A stretch of 64,000 bases of DNA from Polyangia bacterium (GTDB lineage: Bacteria; Myxococcota_A; Polyangia; Polyangiales; JAUICN01). The notes beneath the pieces were generated by a model. The model was not told the DNA's origin. It did no database searches and saw only the letters and a program-made list of their open reading frames with translations. Positions within the stretch are counted from its first letter, which is position 1, and each line of letters begins with the position of its first letter. Both the position numbers and the translations under genes were made by a program. Where the stretch lies: assembly GCA_030427835.1 (NCBI GenBank), contig JAUICN010000002.1:248001-312000 (forward strand). The letters run 5' to 3'. Positions 8,504 to 42,486 of the stretch are shown here, one piece after another.

Positions 8504-8586
8504 CAATGTTTCTCCTTGGGTGGGGCTCGATGTGAGCATTCCTCAGTAATGCAACGCCTGTGCCAATAGCGGCCGTGTGGCCAGTA

Positions 8587-10350
8587 TCAGGAAACGCGCT
8601 GGTTTTGGATGTGCGCTGATGTGCGCTGACCGGGGATTGCGTCCTGTGTGACGTCACGTGGAACGCTCCATGTTCCACTTTGGAGCATTTGGTGTGCCAC
8701 AACGGCTTGGGTGGCGGGCAGGGGGCCGTCGTTGGGGACGGGGCGGTTGTGGATGAGGGGGAGGCTCCACAGGGCAAGGCCCGGGACGTGGGTGTGCACC
8801 CAGTAGGTGCGCCAATCCAGGGTTTCGATGTCGTACTCAAAGAGGTGCTTTTGGTCTTCGGGGAGTCGATCGGAGAGTTCACCGATGTGGTCGGCCACGA
8901 AGTGGTAGTCGTTGTCGAGGATGAAGGGGCGGTAGAGGTTGAGCAGGGTGTGGATGCGGCGTAGAGGTTGTACGAGTTTGGTCACACGGCTGTGCAGTTT
9001 GTCTGCCCAGGTGGCACGGCCGAGTTGTCGCAGCAGTGAGCTCAGGCCGGCTTCCAGTTGGTTGAGGCGTTGTAGGAAGTGTTCCGGGGCGTGGTGTGCA
9101 ATGGCGTCCAGGGTGTGGATGCCAGCGATTTGGGCACCGAGGTTTCGGGCGAGGGGTTCTCGGCCTTCGGCCAGGTCCTGGTTGGCCTGATCGTGCAGCA
9201 GCCGCACGCCCATGGCGGTGAGTTCGATGGCTCGCTCAAAGTTGAGTGCGTTGCGTGTACCCGAGGAGAGATGCACCACGCGTGGCAGTTCTTGCTCCGT
9301 TTTTGTGCCCGCGGGTGTGCCTGTGCCTGTATTGGGGTCTGTGTTTGGGCCGGTGAGGTCTGCCCCTTCTAGAATGTGGGCCACTTCGAGTGTCATGCCC
9401 CGGGCAACGAGATCCACTGGAACCACATCGAACCGGTGGTTTGGGTTGGCGGGAAAGCGCCGAAAGGGAGTTGAAAGCAGCCACACCAGAGGTGAGGAGG
9501 TGTTGACGCCTTCGTTCCATCCCGCAAAGGGGTAGGCCCTTGCGGATTCCACCACGCTGGGACGTACGATGGTGGTTTGGATGTCGGGATAATCGCAGAG
9601 GTCCATTTCTGCGATGCCCTTGCTTAGGGTGTAGATGTTGGGCCAGCCCAGGGATTGGGCCCATTGCGTGGTTTCAGCCTTGCGCTGTTGGCGCGCCGCT
9701 TTGGTGTCTGCACCCGTCTGGGAAGGCATACATTTTTTCTTGAAGGTTTCCCGCAGCTCCCGTGCGCTGATGTTCGTGCCGTTGGGGGTGTGGGCGGGGC
9801 GCACGGTTTCTTGCACAGGGGGCACTGTTTTTCCGCGGTGCCCCTGTGGCAGGTTGCCTGCCACAAATGCGGTGGAGATATGGATGAGGCGTATGCCACG
9901 GGTGTGTCGAGTGATTTCCGCGGCGTGGCGTGCCCCCTGTGTGTTGGTGGCAAAGGCTTGCCTGGGGTCGGGGTTGAAATGGGTAAGCCCCGCCAGGTTC
10001 ACGACCACGTCGATTTGGCGCAGCAGGGGGGTGACCCAACGCCAGTCCAATCCCAACAGGGGTAGGGTGACGTCTCCGTCGAGTACGAGGGTTTTTTTGG
10101 CGAGTTGCTCCCGGAACTCTGGCCCCCAATGGGTGCGTAGGGCCCGAAAGGCGGGGGATTGTTCCGCCATTTCCTGGAAGCGTTCTTCGGCGGTGCTGTG
10201 GGTACCGGCGCGCATGACCAATACGATGCGTTCAAGTTGCGGTACGTCCTGGAGCAACTGGGCTACCCATACTTTGCCGAGAAACCCTGTGGCCCCAGTG
10301 GCAAGCAGGGTGCGGTGTGCGAGTTGTTGTTGGACGTTCAGTGGAGTCAT
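8587..10350 (-). CDS. fatty acyl-CoA reductase-like SDR
   Basis: 587 residues. The Rossmann motif LLATGATGFLGKVW is at residues 15-28. The catalytic pair YTLSKGIAE (YxxxK) and TTIVRPSVVES follow, with a C-terminal helical half of about 230 residues. This is the layout of male-sterility / fatty acyl-CoA reductases, which use NADPH to reduce acyl-CoA to alcohol; the C-terminal part resembles the FAR_C region. It overlaps the gene upstream by 4 bp (ATGA), so the two are coupled. The extra Thr/Gly-rich insert near residue 350 (NTDPNTGTGTPAGT) is probably a loop. Wax ester, ether lipid or fatty alcohol formation are all possible. Confidence 0.85.
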   Translation of the reverse strand: MTPLNVQQQLAHRTLLATGATGFLGKVWVAQLLQDVPQLERIVLVMRAGTHSTAEERFQEMAEQSPAFRALRTHWGPEFREQLAKKTLVLDGDVTLPLLGLDWRWVTPLLRQIDVVVNLAGLTHFNPDPRQAFATNTQGARHAAEITRHTRGIRLIHISTAFVAGNLPQGHRGKTVPPVQETVRPAHTPNGTNISARELRETFKKKCMPSQTGADTKAARQQRKAETTQWAQSLGWPNIYTLSKGIAEMDLCDYPDIQTTIVRPSVVESARAYPFAGWNEGVNTSSPLVWLLSTPFRRFPANPNHRFDVVPVDLVARGMTLEVAHILEGADLTGPNTDPNTGTGTPAGTKTEQELPRVVHLSSGTRNALNFERAIELTAMGVRLLHDQANQDLAEGREPLARNLGAQIAGIHTLDAIAHHAPEHFLQRLNQLEAGLSSLLRQLGRATWADKLHSRVTKLVQPLRRIHTLLNLYRPFILDNDYHFVADHIGELSDRLPEDQKHLFEYDIETLDWRTYWVHTHVPGLALWSLPLIHNRPVPNDGPLPATQAVVAHQMLQSGTWSVPRDVTQDAIPGQRTSAHIQNQRVS

Positions 10351-37908: not shown

Positions 37909-39537
37909 ATGTTGCATGGTGGAAGAATCGTCGCGCGCGCCCTGAAGTTGGAAGGTGTGGACCACGTGTTCACGCTTTGCGGAGGACACATCCAACACAT
38001 CTACGATGGTTGTTTGGATGAGGGAATTCGTGTGGTGGATGTTCGGCACGAACAGACGGCCGGCCACGCCGCGGATGGTTATGCTCGGGTGACCGGGAAA
38101 CCAGGTGTGGCGCTGGTGACTGCGGGCCCAGGGCTGACCGACGTGGTGACCGCGGTGGCGAATGCCAAGAGCGCCGGTGTGCCCATGGTGTGCATCGGTG
38201 GGGCAGGGCCCCTGGTGAACCGGCATATGGGATCGCTACAGGACATGGATCACGTGGAGTTGATGCGCCCCATTACCAAATGGGCCGCCACTGTGACCGA
38301 GACACGGCGCCTTGAGGAGTACGTTACCACGGCGTTTCGCCATGCCATGACGGGTGTTCCAGGCCCGGTATACCTGGAGATGCCCTTGGATGTTCTTGGG
38401 AACTTCTCCACGGACGAGCAAATGGTGCGGGCGACTCAATACCGGACCCGTGCGGTTCCTGCTCCGGAAAAAGCTTCCTTGGACGAGGCCGCTGCACTGC
38501 TGTCCAAGGCGGAGCGCCCCATGGCGATTGTGGGTTCCCAGTTTCGATGGTCCTCCGATCGGGATGCACTGTATGCCTTTGCTGAGAAGAACCCCATGCC
38601 CATCTTTTTGAACGGCATGGCCCGCGGTGCGCTTGGGCCTGGGGACCCGTGTTTCTTTTCCCGCTCTCGCCGGTTCTGTTTGGGCAAGGCGGATGTGGTG
38701 CTTGTGTTTGGTACGCCTTTTGATTTTCGTTTGGACTATGGCCGCACGGGTACCTGGGCGGAGGATGCCAAGGTGATTCAGGTGGATCTGGACCCGACGG
38801 AGATTGGGCGGAACCGCCCCGTGGATGTGGGTATGATCGCGGACTCTGGGTTGGCGTTGCGGGCGCTGGCGGAGCAGGTTTCCAACACAACCACCGGCCC
38901 ATGGATGGAAGCGGTGACCCAGGCGGAAGAAAAGAAGCTTGCCGCCATGCGCATGGAAATGGAGCTTGCCGATTCGCCTCCCAATCCACTTCGGGTGTGT
39001 TCCGAGGTGGCCAAGTACGTCGACGACAATACGGTCGTGGTGGGCGACGGTGGCGATTTTGTGGCCAGCGCGGCCTACACCATGCCCGTGCGATGGCCCG
39101 GTGTGTGGATGGATCCAGGGCCCTTTGGCACCCTGGGTGTGGGCCCGGGCTACGCCATGGCAGCCAAGCTCGCGCGGCCTGATGCGAAGGTGATTCTCAT
39201 GTACGGCGATGGGGCTTTTGGTCTGCATGCCATGGAGTGGGAAGCCATGGCCCGGCAGGGGATCAAGGTGGTTGCCGTGATCGGCAACGATGCGGGGTGG
39301 ACGCAAATTCTACGGGGCCAGCGCGAGATGTTTGGCCCGGAGCGTATTCCCGCCACCACCCTTGCCTACACCCACTATGAGAAGGTGGCGGAAGCGTGCG
39401 GTGCCCGTGGGTTTTATGTGGAGAAGTCGGAGGACCTGGCCGCGGCCCTGGAGCAGGCGTTTGCCTGCCCCGAGCCTGCGGTGGTTAACGTGAAAATCGG
39501 CCAAAGCGATTTCCGAAAAGGCTCCATCAGCGTTTAG
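37909..39537 (+). CDS. thiamine diphosphate-dependent enzyme, acetolactate synthase-like
   Basis: 542 residues in the usual three-domain ThDP order. The catalytic Glu is in [16 protein letters not shown], the Pyr-domain block is [20 protein letters not shown], and the ThDP/Mg motif [17 protein letters not shown] ... GNDAGWTQI is near the end. The family includes acetolactate synthase, 2-hydroxyacyl-CoA lyase and related carboligases. No small subunit (ilvH) is adjacent, so it is unlikely to be the main branched-chain enzyme. The specific reaction is unresolved. Confidence 0.85.
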
Positions 39538-39541
39538 GGTT

Positions 39542-40318
39542 CTAGTCGTTGTCGCCACTGAGTCGGTCGATGATTGTTCCCTGTCGGTCTCCGGTCACGG
39601 AGTTTGGAATACGAATCTGCCCTCCATTCGGCCACCCGTGCCAGCCGTCACCGTCGAATGGATGGTGGTATTCGAGTAGGGTTTGTACTTTGAAAAACGT
39701 GTCTACGGGTTCCTCGATGGTGTTTTTATCGCTGAGGGCGTTTTTGGAAAGCTCGTTCACGAGTACTCCAATGTGAAAAAGACTGTGGTTCTCTGTGAAG
39801 TTGAGGCTCAGTTGTTCTGTGAGGGCAGTCTTCACGTTCCGCAGTACGGCGACCCATTTTTCAGGAGTCTCTACGGGCGTTTCCGCAACCAGGACTTGCC
39901 AGTCTTCGGAGATTGTGCCGTTTTTGATGGTTGCTGCGGTTCTGCAGATAGGTGACTCAAATCGTGAATTGGTGCCCTTGGTCACTACATACGCGGTAAC
40001 GGTATCGTCGAGCAGAACGTTGGAGTTGTGGTGGATGATGAGTTCCAACTCACTTCGTTCACAGTCGGCAAGGCTGGACGCAACAGTACCTACCTCTTTC
40101 ACAGGGAAAAAGCGGAGGCCTATGTAGTGATTTAGGTAGGAGGACTCTTCGATGTAATCCACGACGGTTGAAACGTAGGCGCCGGGGTGGATTGGGTTTT
40201 CGTTTTCGTCAGGGGTAACGTCGCCTGATTTGGTCTGTGAACTGGCTGCCTCAAGGGCGCAGGCCTGGGAGGACAGTACGGCAACGAGTGCCAGGGCTAG
40301 GTACGGGGGGCGGTTCAT
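39542..40318 (-). CDS. lipoprotein of unknown function, paralogue A
   Basis: 258 residues with a signal peptide ending in the lipobox SSQAC. It is homologous to the next gene: matching order of segments such as PGAYVSTVVDYIEESS, a middle TPEKWVAVLRNVKTAL ... HIGVLVNELSKNAL and the ending DGDGWHGWPNGGQIRIPNS. No known family was recognised. Its upstream region is a copy of that of its paralogue, including promoter and a distal palindrome. Function unknown. Confidence 0.72.
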   Translation of the reverse strand: MNRPPYLALALVAVLSSQACALEAASSQTKSGDVTPDENENPIHPGAYVSTVVDYIEESSYLNHYIGLRFFPVKEVGTVASSLADCERSELELIIHHNSNVLLDDTVTAYVVTKGTNSRFESPICRTAATIKNGTISEDWQVLVAETPVETPEKWVAVLRNVKTALTEQLSLNFTENHSLFHIGVLVNELSKNALSDKNTIEEPVDTFFKVQTLLEYHHPFDGDGWHGWPNGGQIRIPNSVTGDRQGTIIDRLSGDND

Positions 40319-40373
40319 GGGGGGACTTCCTTACTGCTTGTTTCTTGTGCCCACTCTGGGCCACGGGCGGCGT

Positions 40374-40402
40374 GTCATAGGTCCGCAAGAACTGCATATC
40401 AA
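40374..40402 (-). promoter_or_regulatory. sigma70 promoter of lipoprotein A
   Basis: TTGATA (40402-40397), 17-bp spacer, TATGAC (40379-40374). The identical hexamers with the same spacing occur upstream of paralogue B, embedded in conserved sequence, which supports real use. It sits 56 bp from the ATG. Confidence 0.75.
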
Positions 40403-40477
40403 GTGGCGTGCCAACCTTTTTTTAGGGTGTTTTTCGCTGAAAGCATTGACTTCATATGGTGACCCATGTCGCCGGTG

Positions 40478-40492
40478 TGACATTTTCTGTCC
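40478..40492. promoter_or_regulatory. distal palindrome upstream of lipoprotein A promoter
   Basis: TGACA-TTTTC-TGTCC, an inverted repeat with one mismatch at the outer base, lies 75 bp upstream of the -35. The same element, with perfect arms, is at nearly the same distance in the second copy, so it may be an activator or repressor site. Confidence 0.45.
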
Positions 40493-40542
40493 AGCGGGCT
40501 GGATTTGAGTCGACCTGTGGGGCCTGGGTTTCCGCAAGTCGT

Positions 40543-41355
40543 TTATTCGTTGCTGTAAAAGGCGTCGTGTCCGCGCCCGCTATGGTTGGGAACCGCAATC
40601 AGGATTTTTTCGGCGTTGGGCCAATCGCTCCAGTAGTGACCATCGTAGTCGTGGTTGTATCCCGCACCGATTGCATCGCTTTGGGTAAGAGCCTTGCGGA
40701 TCTCAATGTGCTGAGATGTTTCCTGGAGAACCATGTTGTCAGTGCGGGATTCGTTCCCATAGGCACGCGCCAGATTGTTTGCCAGAACGCCAAGGTGAAA
40801 ACGGGCGTTTCCAATTGCGATGGCATCGTGGTTTTCGGAGAGATGGGTGGCCAGGTTTTCAAAAGCTTTGACCCAGTCCTTGGGATTCAGGTCGCCCAGG
40901 TCCAAATCATCGTGCTCGGACTTATGATCGACGGTGGTCCACCCTGGGGGCAGGGTGTTGTCAGGTGAGCCCTCTATCGCGGTCTCGATATCACATATGT
41001 GTTTTTGCTCTTCGCTGTTTTCTACCTTGTAGAACCGTAGGTTGTCGTAGAGGGCACTCTCTTCCCGTTGCAGCACCAACGAGATTTCGGCATCCCCGCA
41101 TTGGGATTTATTCGCTTGGTATGAACCTGCCTTGCGAACGTTGTGGATTTGTAGCTCGGCATAGAGGTTGTCTTCCACTAGACCCAAATTCCAGTGCGCG
41201 TTGACGTGGGATACGTGAACGCCGGGCCCTGGAGTTTCGGGGCTTTTTGTCTGGGAAGCCGGGTCCATGGAACAGGCGCTCAGCAGTGTGACCGTTAGGG
41301 AGACGGTTAGCCCCACGGAGTTTGAAAGAATTGGGTTTGCGGGGTGGAGACTCAT
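40543..41355 (-). CDS. lipoprotein of unknown function, paralogue B
   Basis: 270 residues with a signal peptide ending in LLSAC. It aligns along its length with paralogue A: a segment GPGVHVSHVNAHWN, a Cys in NKSQCGDAEISLVLQ matching ADCERSELELII, then NPKDWVKAFENLATHL ... FHLGVLANNLARAY, and a C-terminal DYDGHYWSDWPNAEKILIAVPN. Downstream of it is the promoter region of paralogue A. The pair probably arose by a tandem duplication of promoter plus gene and then diverged. Function unknown. Confidence 0.72.
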   Translation of the reverse strand: MSLHPANPILSNSVGLTVSLTVTLLSACSMDPASQTKSPETPGPGVHVSHVNAHWNLGLVEDNLYAELQIHNVRKAGSYQANKSQCGDAEISLVLQREESALYDNLRFYKVENSEEQKHICDIETAIEGSPDNTLPPGWTTVDHKSEHDDLDLGDLNPKDWVKAFENLATHLSENHDAIAIGNARFHLGVLANNLARAYGNESRTDNMVLQETSQHIEIRKALTQSDAIGAGYNHDYDGHYWSDWPNAEKILIAVPNHSGRGHDAFYSNE

Positions 41356-41411
41356 GTGGGGGCTTCTTGATTTGAAGGTTCGATTGACCTACTTCAGGTC
41401 AACGGCGGCGT

Positions 41412-41440
41412 GTCATAGGCTCGCAAGAACTGCATATCAA
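41412..41440 (-). promoter_or_regulatory. sigma70 promoter of lipoprotein B
   Basis: TTGATA (41440-41435), 17-bp spacer, TATGAC (41417-41412); same hexamers and spacing as for paralogue A. Confidence 0.75.
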
Positions 41441-41516
41441 GTCCTGTGCCAACCATTTTTACGGAGTTTTTACTATGAAGATCAGGGTTTGGAGGTGGTG
41501 ACTCGGGCGGCCGGTA

Positions 41517-41531
41517 GGACATTTTCTGTCC
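41517..41531. promoter_or_regulatory. distal palindrome upstream of lipoprotein B promoter
   Basis: GGACA-TTTTC-TGTCC, perfect 5-bp arms, lies 76 bp upstream of the -35. It also falls 31 bp before the divergent bamD-like start. Confidence 0.45.
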
Positions 41532-41562
41532 GTGCGGCCAGATCCTGGTTTCCCCGTAGGGG

Positions 41563-42486
41563 TTGGTTGCAGCGGCAGGGCTATGGGGCTACGTGCCTGG
41601 GGCTTTGCCCAAATCCCATTCCCATTTGGTTTGGAACCCCAGCTGTCGCCCTGCGGGTCTCCTTTTTCTGGCTGCTGGCGCTGTCCTTGCTGTGGCCCTG
41701 GGCGCAGGCTGCGGAGCGAAACAGGATACTGCCGATTTGAGTTACTCCGAGGGCGCAGAGGTGGCGTTTGCGGAGGCCATGAAGGATTTTGATCGGGGCA
41801 ACTGTTTGGAGGCGGAACCCGCGTTTCGTCAGGTTCGAAAAGGTTTTCCGTTTAGCGGGTATGCGGCTCTTTCGGAGCTTCGCCTTTCTGACTGTATGTT
41901 TCGCCAGCAGAAGTATGCGGAGGCGGTGGAGGCCTATCGCCGCTTTGTGCGCAGCCGCCCGGCCCATGCAGAGCTTCCCTACGCACGGTTTCAGATTGCA
42001 CGGTCCTATTTTAAGCAGATCCCTGGGGACTGGTTTTTGGCGCCGCCCGCCCACGAGCGCGACCAATCTGCCACCAAGGATGCGCTGATACAATTGCAGC
42101 GTTTCATTGCGGACTACCCTGAAAATGAACTTGCGGAGCAGGCCCGTGAGTTGCAGCAGAAGTGCCTTAGCAGGCTTGCCCGACATGAGCTTTACGTGGC
42201 GCGGTATTACGTGAGCAAGGGCAAACGCCTGGGGGCCATGGGGCGTTTGCAGGGAATGTTGACAACTTACCCCGGGAGTGTGGTGGAGCCGGAGGCGATG
42301 TTGTTGTTGGGGCGACTTTACATGGAAGACCGGGATCGTGATCGGGCGCGTAGGATGTTTGTTGCTATCCGGGAGCGCTACCCGGAGACTGACGAGGGGC
42401 GGCGTGCGAAGGGGTTCCTGAATCGATTGGGTTCCCCGGTCACGGCTCCCTCGGTTATCACTTCCTCGTCAGCAGAGCCGTTGTGA
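41563..42486 (+). CDS. bamD: outer membrane assembly lipoprotein BamD-like
   Basis: Up to 307 residues from a TTG; GTG starts a few codons in are possible. The lipobox is VALGAGC. The mature protein is built from TPR-like repeats (EAEPAFRQVRKGFPFSGYAALSEL, AEAVEAYRRFVRSRPAHAELPYARFQIARSYF, then DALIQLQRFIADYPENELAEQA). That is the BamD/YfiO pattern (Sel1-free TPRs with the Y/F-rich ARFQIARSYF). BamD helps BamA insert outer-membrane proteins. The stop overlaps the next TPR gene by 1 bp (TGATG). Confidence 0.88.
   Translation: MVAAAGLWGYVPGALPKSHSHLVWNPSCRPAGLLFLAAGAVLAVALGAGCGAKQDTADLSYSEGAEVAFAEAMKDFDRGNCLEAEPAFRQVRKGFPFSGYAALSELRLSDCMFRQQKYAEAVEAYRRFVRSRPAHAELPYARFQIARSYFKQIPGDWFLAPPAHERDQSATKDALIQLQRFIADYPENELAEQARELQQKCLSRLARHELYVARYYVSKGKRLGAMGRLQGMLTTYPGSVVEPEAMLLLGRLYMEDRDRDRARRMFVAIRERYPETDEGRRAKGFLNRLGSPVTAPSVITSSSAEPL

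Follow-up and report, generated by a model that had tools for sequence, protein, structure and literature searches.

The two adjacent minus-strand genes A and B raise the question of what switches them on, and why their control regions have stayed so much more alike than their coding regions. The genes lie in the window (the whole stretch of DNA analysed here, 64,000 nucleotides) as follows:

39542..40318, minus strand: gene A, an open reading frame for a 258-aa lipoprotein with N-terminus MNRPPYLALALVAVLSSQAC-ALEAASSQTKS, lipobox read directly
40543..41355, minus strand: gene B, an open reading frame for a 270-aa lipoprotein with N-terminus ...SLTVTLLSAC-SMDPASQTKS, lipobox read directly

The lipobox with its cysteine, identified both by rule and by eye, reads SSQAC in A and LLSAC in B. 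By alignment, the coding regions are 46.8% identical in nucleotides (34% at third positions) and the proteins 32% identical in amino acids. Judged from these sequences, A and B are strongly diverged lipoprotein paralogues, as a sequence-only reading of this DNA had claimed. Sequence searches of Pfam (A and B), NCBIfam (none for B) and PDB with the pair gave no useful match, and an AlphaFold model built from a two-row alignment of the pair reached a pLDDT of 32. A search of 288 further genomes of the class, of a collection of genome contigs, of viral contigs and of plasmids turned up no homologue of A or B. Tandem lipoprotein pairs of about 23% identity recur in the genome (L237:457-4272, L245:6117-9151, L248:1508-5861).

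The intergenic regions upstream of the two genes (minus strand, before 40318 and 41355) have identical block order, and their local alignment scores 69, whereas 300 shuffles never exceeded 15. Set beside the coding identity, this score bears out the earlier claim that the coding regions have diverged far more than the control blocks. The motifs which that reading reported in the same order at both genes, TTGATA-17 bp-TATGAC and GACA-TTTTC-TGTC, are all found in these minus-strand upstream regions, the latter as read on the plus strand. The best-kept stretch reads, on that strand, GGTTGGCAC-N5-TTGATATGCAGTTCTTGCG-N2-CCTATGACACGCCGCC, the last two bases of the N5 also being common (AC). The similarity is patchy: between identical blocks (the palindrome, TTGGCAC and TTGATATGCAGTTCTTGCG) lie stretches of weak similarity, the N5 of the sigma-54-type element among them. 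About 35 bases downstream of -12 are conserved between A and B and are not accounted for by that element; they may belong to a second promoter or a leader element, or may be initially transcribed. The upstream features are:

40398..40414, minus strand: sigma-54-type -24/-12 element of gene A, TTGGCAC-GCCAC-TTGAT, with a variant -12 (GA for GC), from genomic pattern search and alignment
41436..41452, minus strand: sigma-54-type -24/-12 element of gene B, TTGGCAC-AGGAC-TTGAT, from genomic pattern search and alignment
40387, minus strand: predicted transcription start of gene A, placed 12 nt downstream of the -12 base
41425, minus strand: predicted transcription start of gene B, placed 12 nt downstream of the -12 base
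40402-40374, minus strand: TTGATA-17-TATGAC of gene A, within the conserved block, rejected by the sigma-70 scan
41440-41412, minus strand: TTGATA-17-TATGAC of gene B, conserved with A, rejected by the sigma-70 scan
40479..40492, minus strand: enhancer-like palindrome of gene A, GGACA-GAAAA-TGTC, centre about -98 from the predicted start
41518..41531, minus strand: enhancer-like palindrome of gene B, GGACA-GAAAA-TGTC(C), centre about -99 from the predicted start

The 5' leaders each contain a small hairpin (window 40349-40361 and 41387-41399) with two compensatory pair changes. As a riboregulator this hairpin was set aside: the A leader folds no better than shuffles, and only the B leader folds better.

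Our results suggest that the promoters of A and B are of the sigma-54 type. The N5 has diverged (GCCAC versus AGGAC), while the flanking TTGGCAC and TTGAT are identical in both promoters. The GG at -24 lies in a perfect TTGGCAC in both genes, and the element agrees with TTGGCAC-N5-TTGCW at 11 of 12 positions, the one mismatch being A for C at -12. The GC at -12 is the most conserved dinucleotide of sigma-54 promoters, whose transcription starts about 12 nt past the -12 base. Since A and B have TTGAT at the right spacing in place of TTGC, which is present at the third palindrome copy described below, we class their promoters as sigma-54-like, the -12 being a variant, and do not count them as certified members. 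The 3.32-Mb genome has no TTGGCAC-N5-TTGATA beyond these two, and the reversed control has none at all. The GA variant at -12 recurs once, as TTGATCC at C30:253402 (L131), before a lipoprotein gene (MESWSSG...LLPACVPVSG). The earlier assignment of TTGATA and TATGAC as the -35 and -10 of a sigma-70 promoter is not supported: a sigma-70 scan of 39400-41700 returned 0 promoters because TATGAC does not have the last T (T6) of the -10 box, and the sigma-54 element fits instead. On this negative scan, and with the A2/T6 pair of the -10 box incomplete, sigma-70 was rejected as the main promoter.

The palindrome is rare only in its full form. On the plus strand, GACATTTTCTGTC at 40479-40491 and 41518-41530 makes up the only two GACA-N5-TGTC sites of the window (0.87 expected), and GGACA-N5-TGTC is found 20 times genome-wide versus 18 in the reversed control. 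As a general motif, GACA-N5-TGTC is thus at chance level, and only the form with the GAAAA spacer matters. The full 14-mer GGACAGAAAATGTC, whose definition drew only on A and B before the genome-wide search, has 3 genomic copies versus 0 in the control and 0.009 expected from base composition. The third copy (C7:172765) is unlinked to A and B and has the same orientation relative to its gene; 33 bp further on comes TGGCAC-ATTGC-TTGC, which is a perfect sigma-54 core, with a lipoprotein gene (MKVDTHPRFFSRTIRSIVALSLALSGACSS...) behind it. The genome search for the palindrome near other promoters, which the sequence-only reading had proposed as a check, therefore yields one further copy with a sigma-54 core and a lipoprotein gene downstream. 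Standing in for a comparison of orthologues, this third copy agrees with a regulatory role predicted from sequence. A strong sigma-54-like element lies downstream of 3/3 copies with the GAAAA spacer but of 0/13 GGACA-N5-TGTC sites with other spacers, and specificity therefore resides in the whole site, spacer included.

Enhancers of bEBPs are usually located about 80-150 bp upstream of the start. The dimer-type palindromes of A and B, at about -98 and -99, lie within this range, and the third copy is closer in, its spacing to the promoter being 33 bp versus 65-66 bp in A and B. Helical phasing was considered and dropped, with distances from palindrome centre to TGGCAC of 40, 60, 61, 72, 73 and 78.5 bp, which are only roughly in phase. 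The common regulator postulated earlier is likely to exist at the palindrome; its kind is not wholly unknown, the sigma-54-type element making it most likely a bEBP.

The genome encodes the machinery that such control would use. It has one rpoN gene (E=1.5e-65) with the canonical RpoN box ARRTVAKYRE, and 15 bEBPs with a full AAA+ domain, 14 of them with a GAFTGA-type loop. Among ten bEBPs scanned for domains, seven have FHA and three have a receiver. A search of the genome for the cognate bEBP through autoregulatory sites and gene neighbourhood gave nothing decisive. An arrangement in which a response-regulator bEBP gene is directly followed by a sigma-54-type element and a small lipoprotein gene was also seen (L012:1081-2487, L092:812-1207).

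We then propose a mechanistic model, which we consider likely, in which each gene has its own sigma-54-type promoter and a bEBP enhancer at about -98, forming a small regulon within a larger sigma-54 lipoprotein regulon. The elements, their conservation, genome-wide rarity and co-occurrence, and the rpoN and bEBP genes are observed in the genome; binding, sigma-54 dependence, bEBP identity, signal and lipoprotein role are inferred in the account that follows. A bEBP dimer would bind the palindrome GGACA-GAAAA-TGTC and, upon arrival of a signal, would assemble into an active AAA+ oligomer. By DNA looping, the oligomer would reach the closed sigma-54 polymerase and the promoter would be opened, so that A and B would be switched on jointly with at least 1 unlinked lipoprotein gene bearing the same 14-mer.

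The GA at -12, the ~35 conserved downstream bases and the unequal spacing of the palindromes speak against the sigma-54 reading, and A and B count as one observation because their upstream regions are homologous. One alternative takes the downstream bases as its starting point: the promoters could be dual and overlapping, the sigma-54-type one activated and TTGATA-17-TATGAC, or another element of the downstream block, a basal one of the sigma-70 family. Conservation from TTGATA to TATGACACGCCGCC indeed equals that of the sigma-54 boxes, more than a sigma-54 element by itself would call for. However, TATGAC is a poor -10 without its final T, the scan finds no sigma-70 promoter, and the 17-bp spacer is itself conserved at 15/17 positions, unusual for a sigma-70 spacer; we consider dual promoters rather unlikely. 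The view of the sequence-only reading, that of a sigma-70 promoter whose palindrome binds an unrelated activator or repressor, could draw on the occurrence of TTGATA-17-TATGAC in both genes and on a palindrome that could suit any dimeric regulator, but it meets the same negative scan and leaves TTGGCAC unexplained. At the third palindrome copy, moreover, the sigma-54 element is perfect and no TTGATA-17-TATGAC was reported, and we hold a simple sigma-70 promoter to be very unlikely.

The conservation could also stem from gene conversion or a fresh duplication that copied one upstream region, and not from regulatory selection. In its favour, the A/B conservation extends past the known elements, and other diverged tandem lipoprotein pairs in the genome have no comparable conserved upstream regions, such conservation not being the rule. 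A single recent event, however, would leave even similarity, whereas the similarity here is patchy and the N5 has diverged; we regard copying as improbable. Because the third copy is unlinked, the functional reading is independent of the copying question.

To return to the sigma-54 model, the larger regulon that it supposes has genome-wide counts in its favour. TGGCAC-N5-TTG occurs at 79 genomic sites versus 46 in the reversed control, and the stricter TTGGCAC-N5-TTGCW at 8 versus 0. With lipoproteins called by one automatic lipobox rule, a lipoprotein start codon lies no more than 100 nt downstream of 23/45 TGGCAC-N5-TTGC sites. The corresponding figures are 3/26 for sites whose -12 is GG or GT (p=9e-4) and 2.55% for 4000 random positions (p=5e-24). 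Inspection by eye adds a few more of the 45 to those that precede lipoproteins. The sigma-54-type targets also include FliD and FlgB, identified by eye, as expected for sigma-54. In an unbiased 464-kb sample, a strong sigma-54-like element precedes 7/67 predicted lipoproteins but 3/296 other genes (p=4e-4), and 2 of these 3 other genes resemble missed lipoproteins. In the window, another lipoprotein gene, 8503(-), has a perfect TTGGCACAGGCGTTGCA promoter at 8550-8566 with a GGARC-N7-GYTCC palindrome (8660-8676) upstream.

This second type of palindrome is found at 78 places genome-wide, compared with 45 for the control; examples (L214-L225) are G000:C17:70346-70393, C15:174536-174580 and C5:10276-10321. 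The copies are frequently paired, 19-31 bp apart. Of 20 regions inspected, roughly half carry a sigma-54-like element, in some cases a degenerate one, together with a lipoprotein gene immediately downstream. The GGARC-N7-GYTCC type has the core ACA-N5-TGT in common with the A/B palindrome. Both types are present at the C7 promoter, and a hybrid is found at L078 (GGAACACGAAATGTCC).

The lipoproteins behind these promoters tend to show [ASTG]-K-[SG] 4-16 residues past the lipid cysteine, seen in A as CALEAASSQTKS and in B as CSMDPASQTKS. The signature was first spotted by eye, and the set used afterwards to test it was for the most part a different one. In the 464-kb sample, with a slightly wider rule than [ASTG]-K-[SG], a score threshold picked among three and lipoproteins called by a simple rule, it is present in 10/13 lipoproteins with a strong sigma-54-like element versus 8/54 without one (p=3e-5), and with the window left out in 8/10 versus 8/47 (p=3e-4). 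The protein bodies are mostly unrelated, with few pairwise matches and Pfam domains in only a handful. Elsewhere in the order, about 6 of 17 TTGGCAC-N5-TTGCW sites stand before lipoproteins as judged by eye (L260, L261, L263, L267, L268, L270); neither palindrome and no clear K-S signature was found at those sites. The link between sigma-54 and lipoproteins may thus be wider than this genome, and the enhancers and the tag look lineage-specific from these comparisons.

Activation of sigma-54 through bEBP enhancers is an already-known mechanism. The M. xanthus sigma-54 consensus is TGGCACG-N4-TTGC(T/A), and the sigma-54/Nla28 regulon of that species resembles the present case in its -24 box, spacing, upstream dimer-type sites and many bEBPs (PMC9765219). 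It differs in that A and B have GA at -12, although the M. xanthus nla6 promoter is also off consensus there, in that the targets here are mostly lipoproteins, and in its enhancer, the Nla28 half-site CT(C/G)CG(C/G)AG being unlike GGACAGAAAATGTC (PMC9765219). In Leptospira, EbpA-RpoN regulates two lipoprotein genes and amtB, with sigma-54 elements directly before the lipoprotein genes and activation there by an upstream-bound bEBP, as proposed here; the system belongs to a different phylum and comprises two lipoprotein genes versus tens here, and the passages of the review consulted report no shared N-terminal signature (reviewed in PMC12655853). In Borrelia, Rrp2-RpoN-RpoS controls outer-surface lipoproteins, so that sigma-54 activity likewise leads to lipoprotein expression, but indirectly, through RpoS, whereas here the sigma-54-type elements are direct (PMC3037356). 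Francke et al. 2011, comparing many phyla, argued that what sigma-54 controls has to do with the exterior of the cell, including its lipoproteins; here, in one genome, half of the consensus sites stand before lipoprotein genes (PMC3162934). In the open-access library searched, we found no lipoprotein regulon of such size, no such enhancers and no coupled N-terminal signature. Our analysis replaces an anonymous shared promoter with a circuit that can be tested, in which the sigma factor is named, the enhancer is defined and the candidate activators number about 15. It suggests that sigma-54 is largely a lipoprotein regulator in this Myxococcota-like lineage, a concrete large-scale case for the idea of exterior control. 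The placement of the lineage is tentative: for one housekeeping protein, the best named match comes from a Myxococcota MAG, at 54% identity, and Nannocystaceae rank among those that follow.

The signature is a candidate sorting or processing tag, at this stage a lead rather than a result, and it supplies a tag for lipoprotein sorting that can be tested. It is tempting to speculate, if doubtfully, that there is a dedicated sigma-54 lipoprotein system, in which dozens, perhaps more than 100, otherwise unrelated lipoproteins would be switched by bEBPs via two related palindromes (GGACA-N5-TGTCC and the paired GGARC-N7-GYTCC), their common [ASTG]-K-[SG] serving as a signal for sorting, export or attachment that a putative envelope machine would read. 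If so, regulation and address would be coupled.

Examples that bear the signature are 40318(-) and 41355(-) in the window, and L245:17055-18401, L237:457-2295, L248:3687-5861, L235:5225-6724 and L241:19411-19998.
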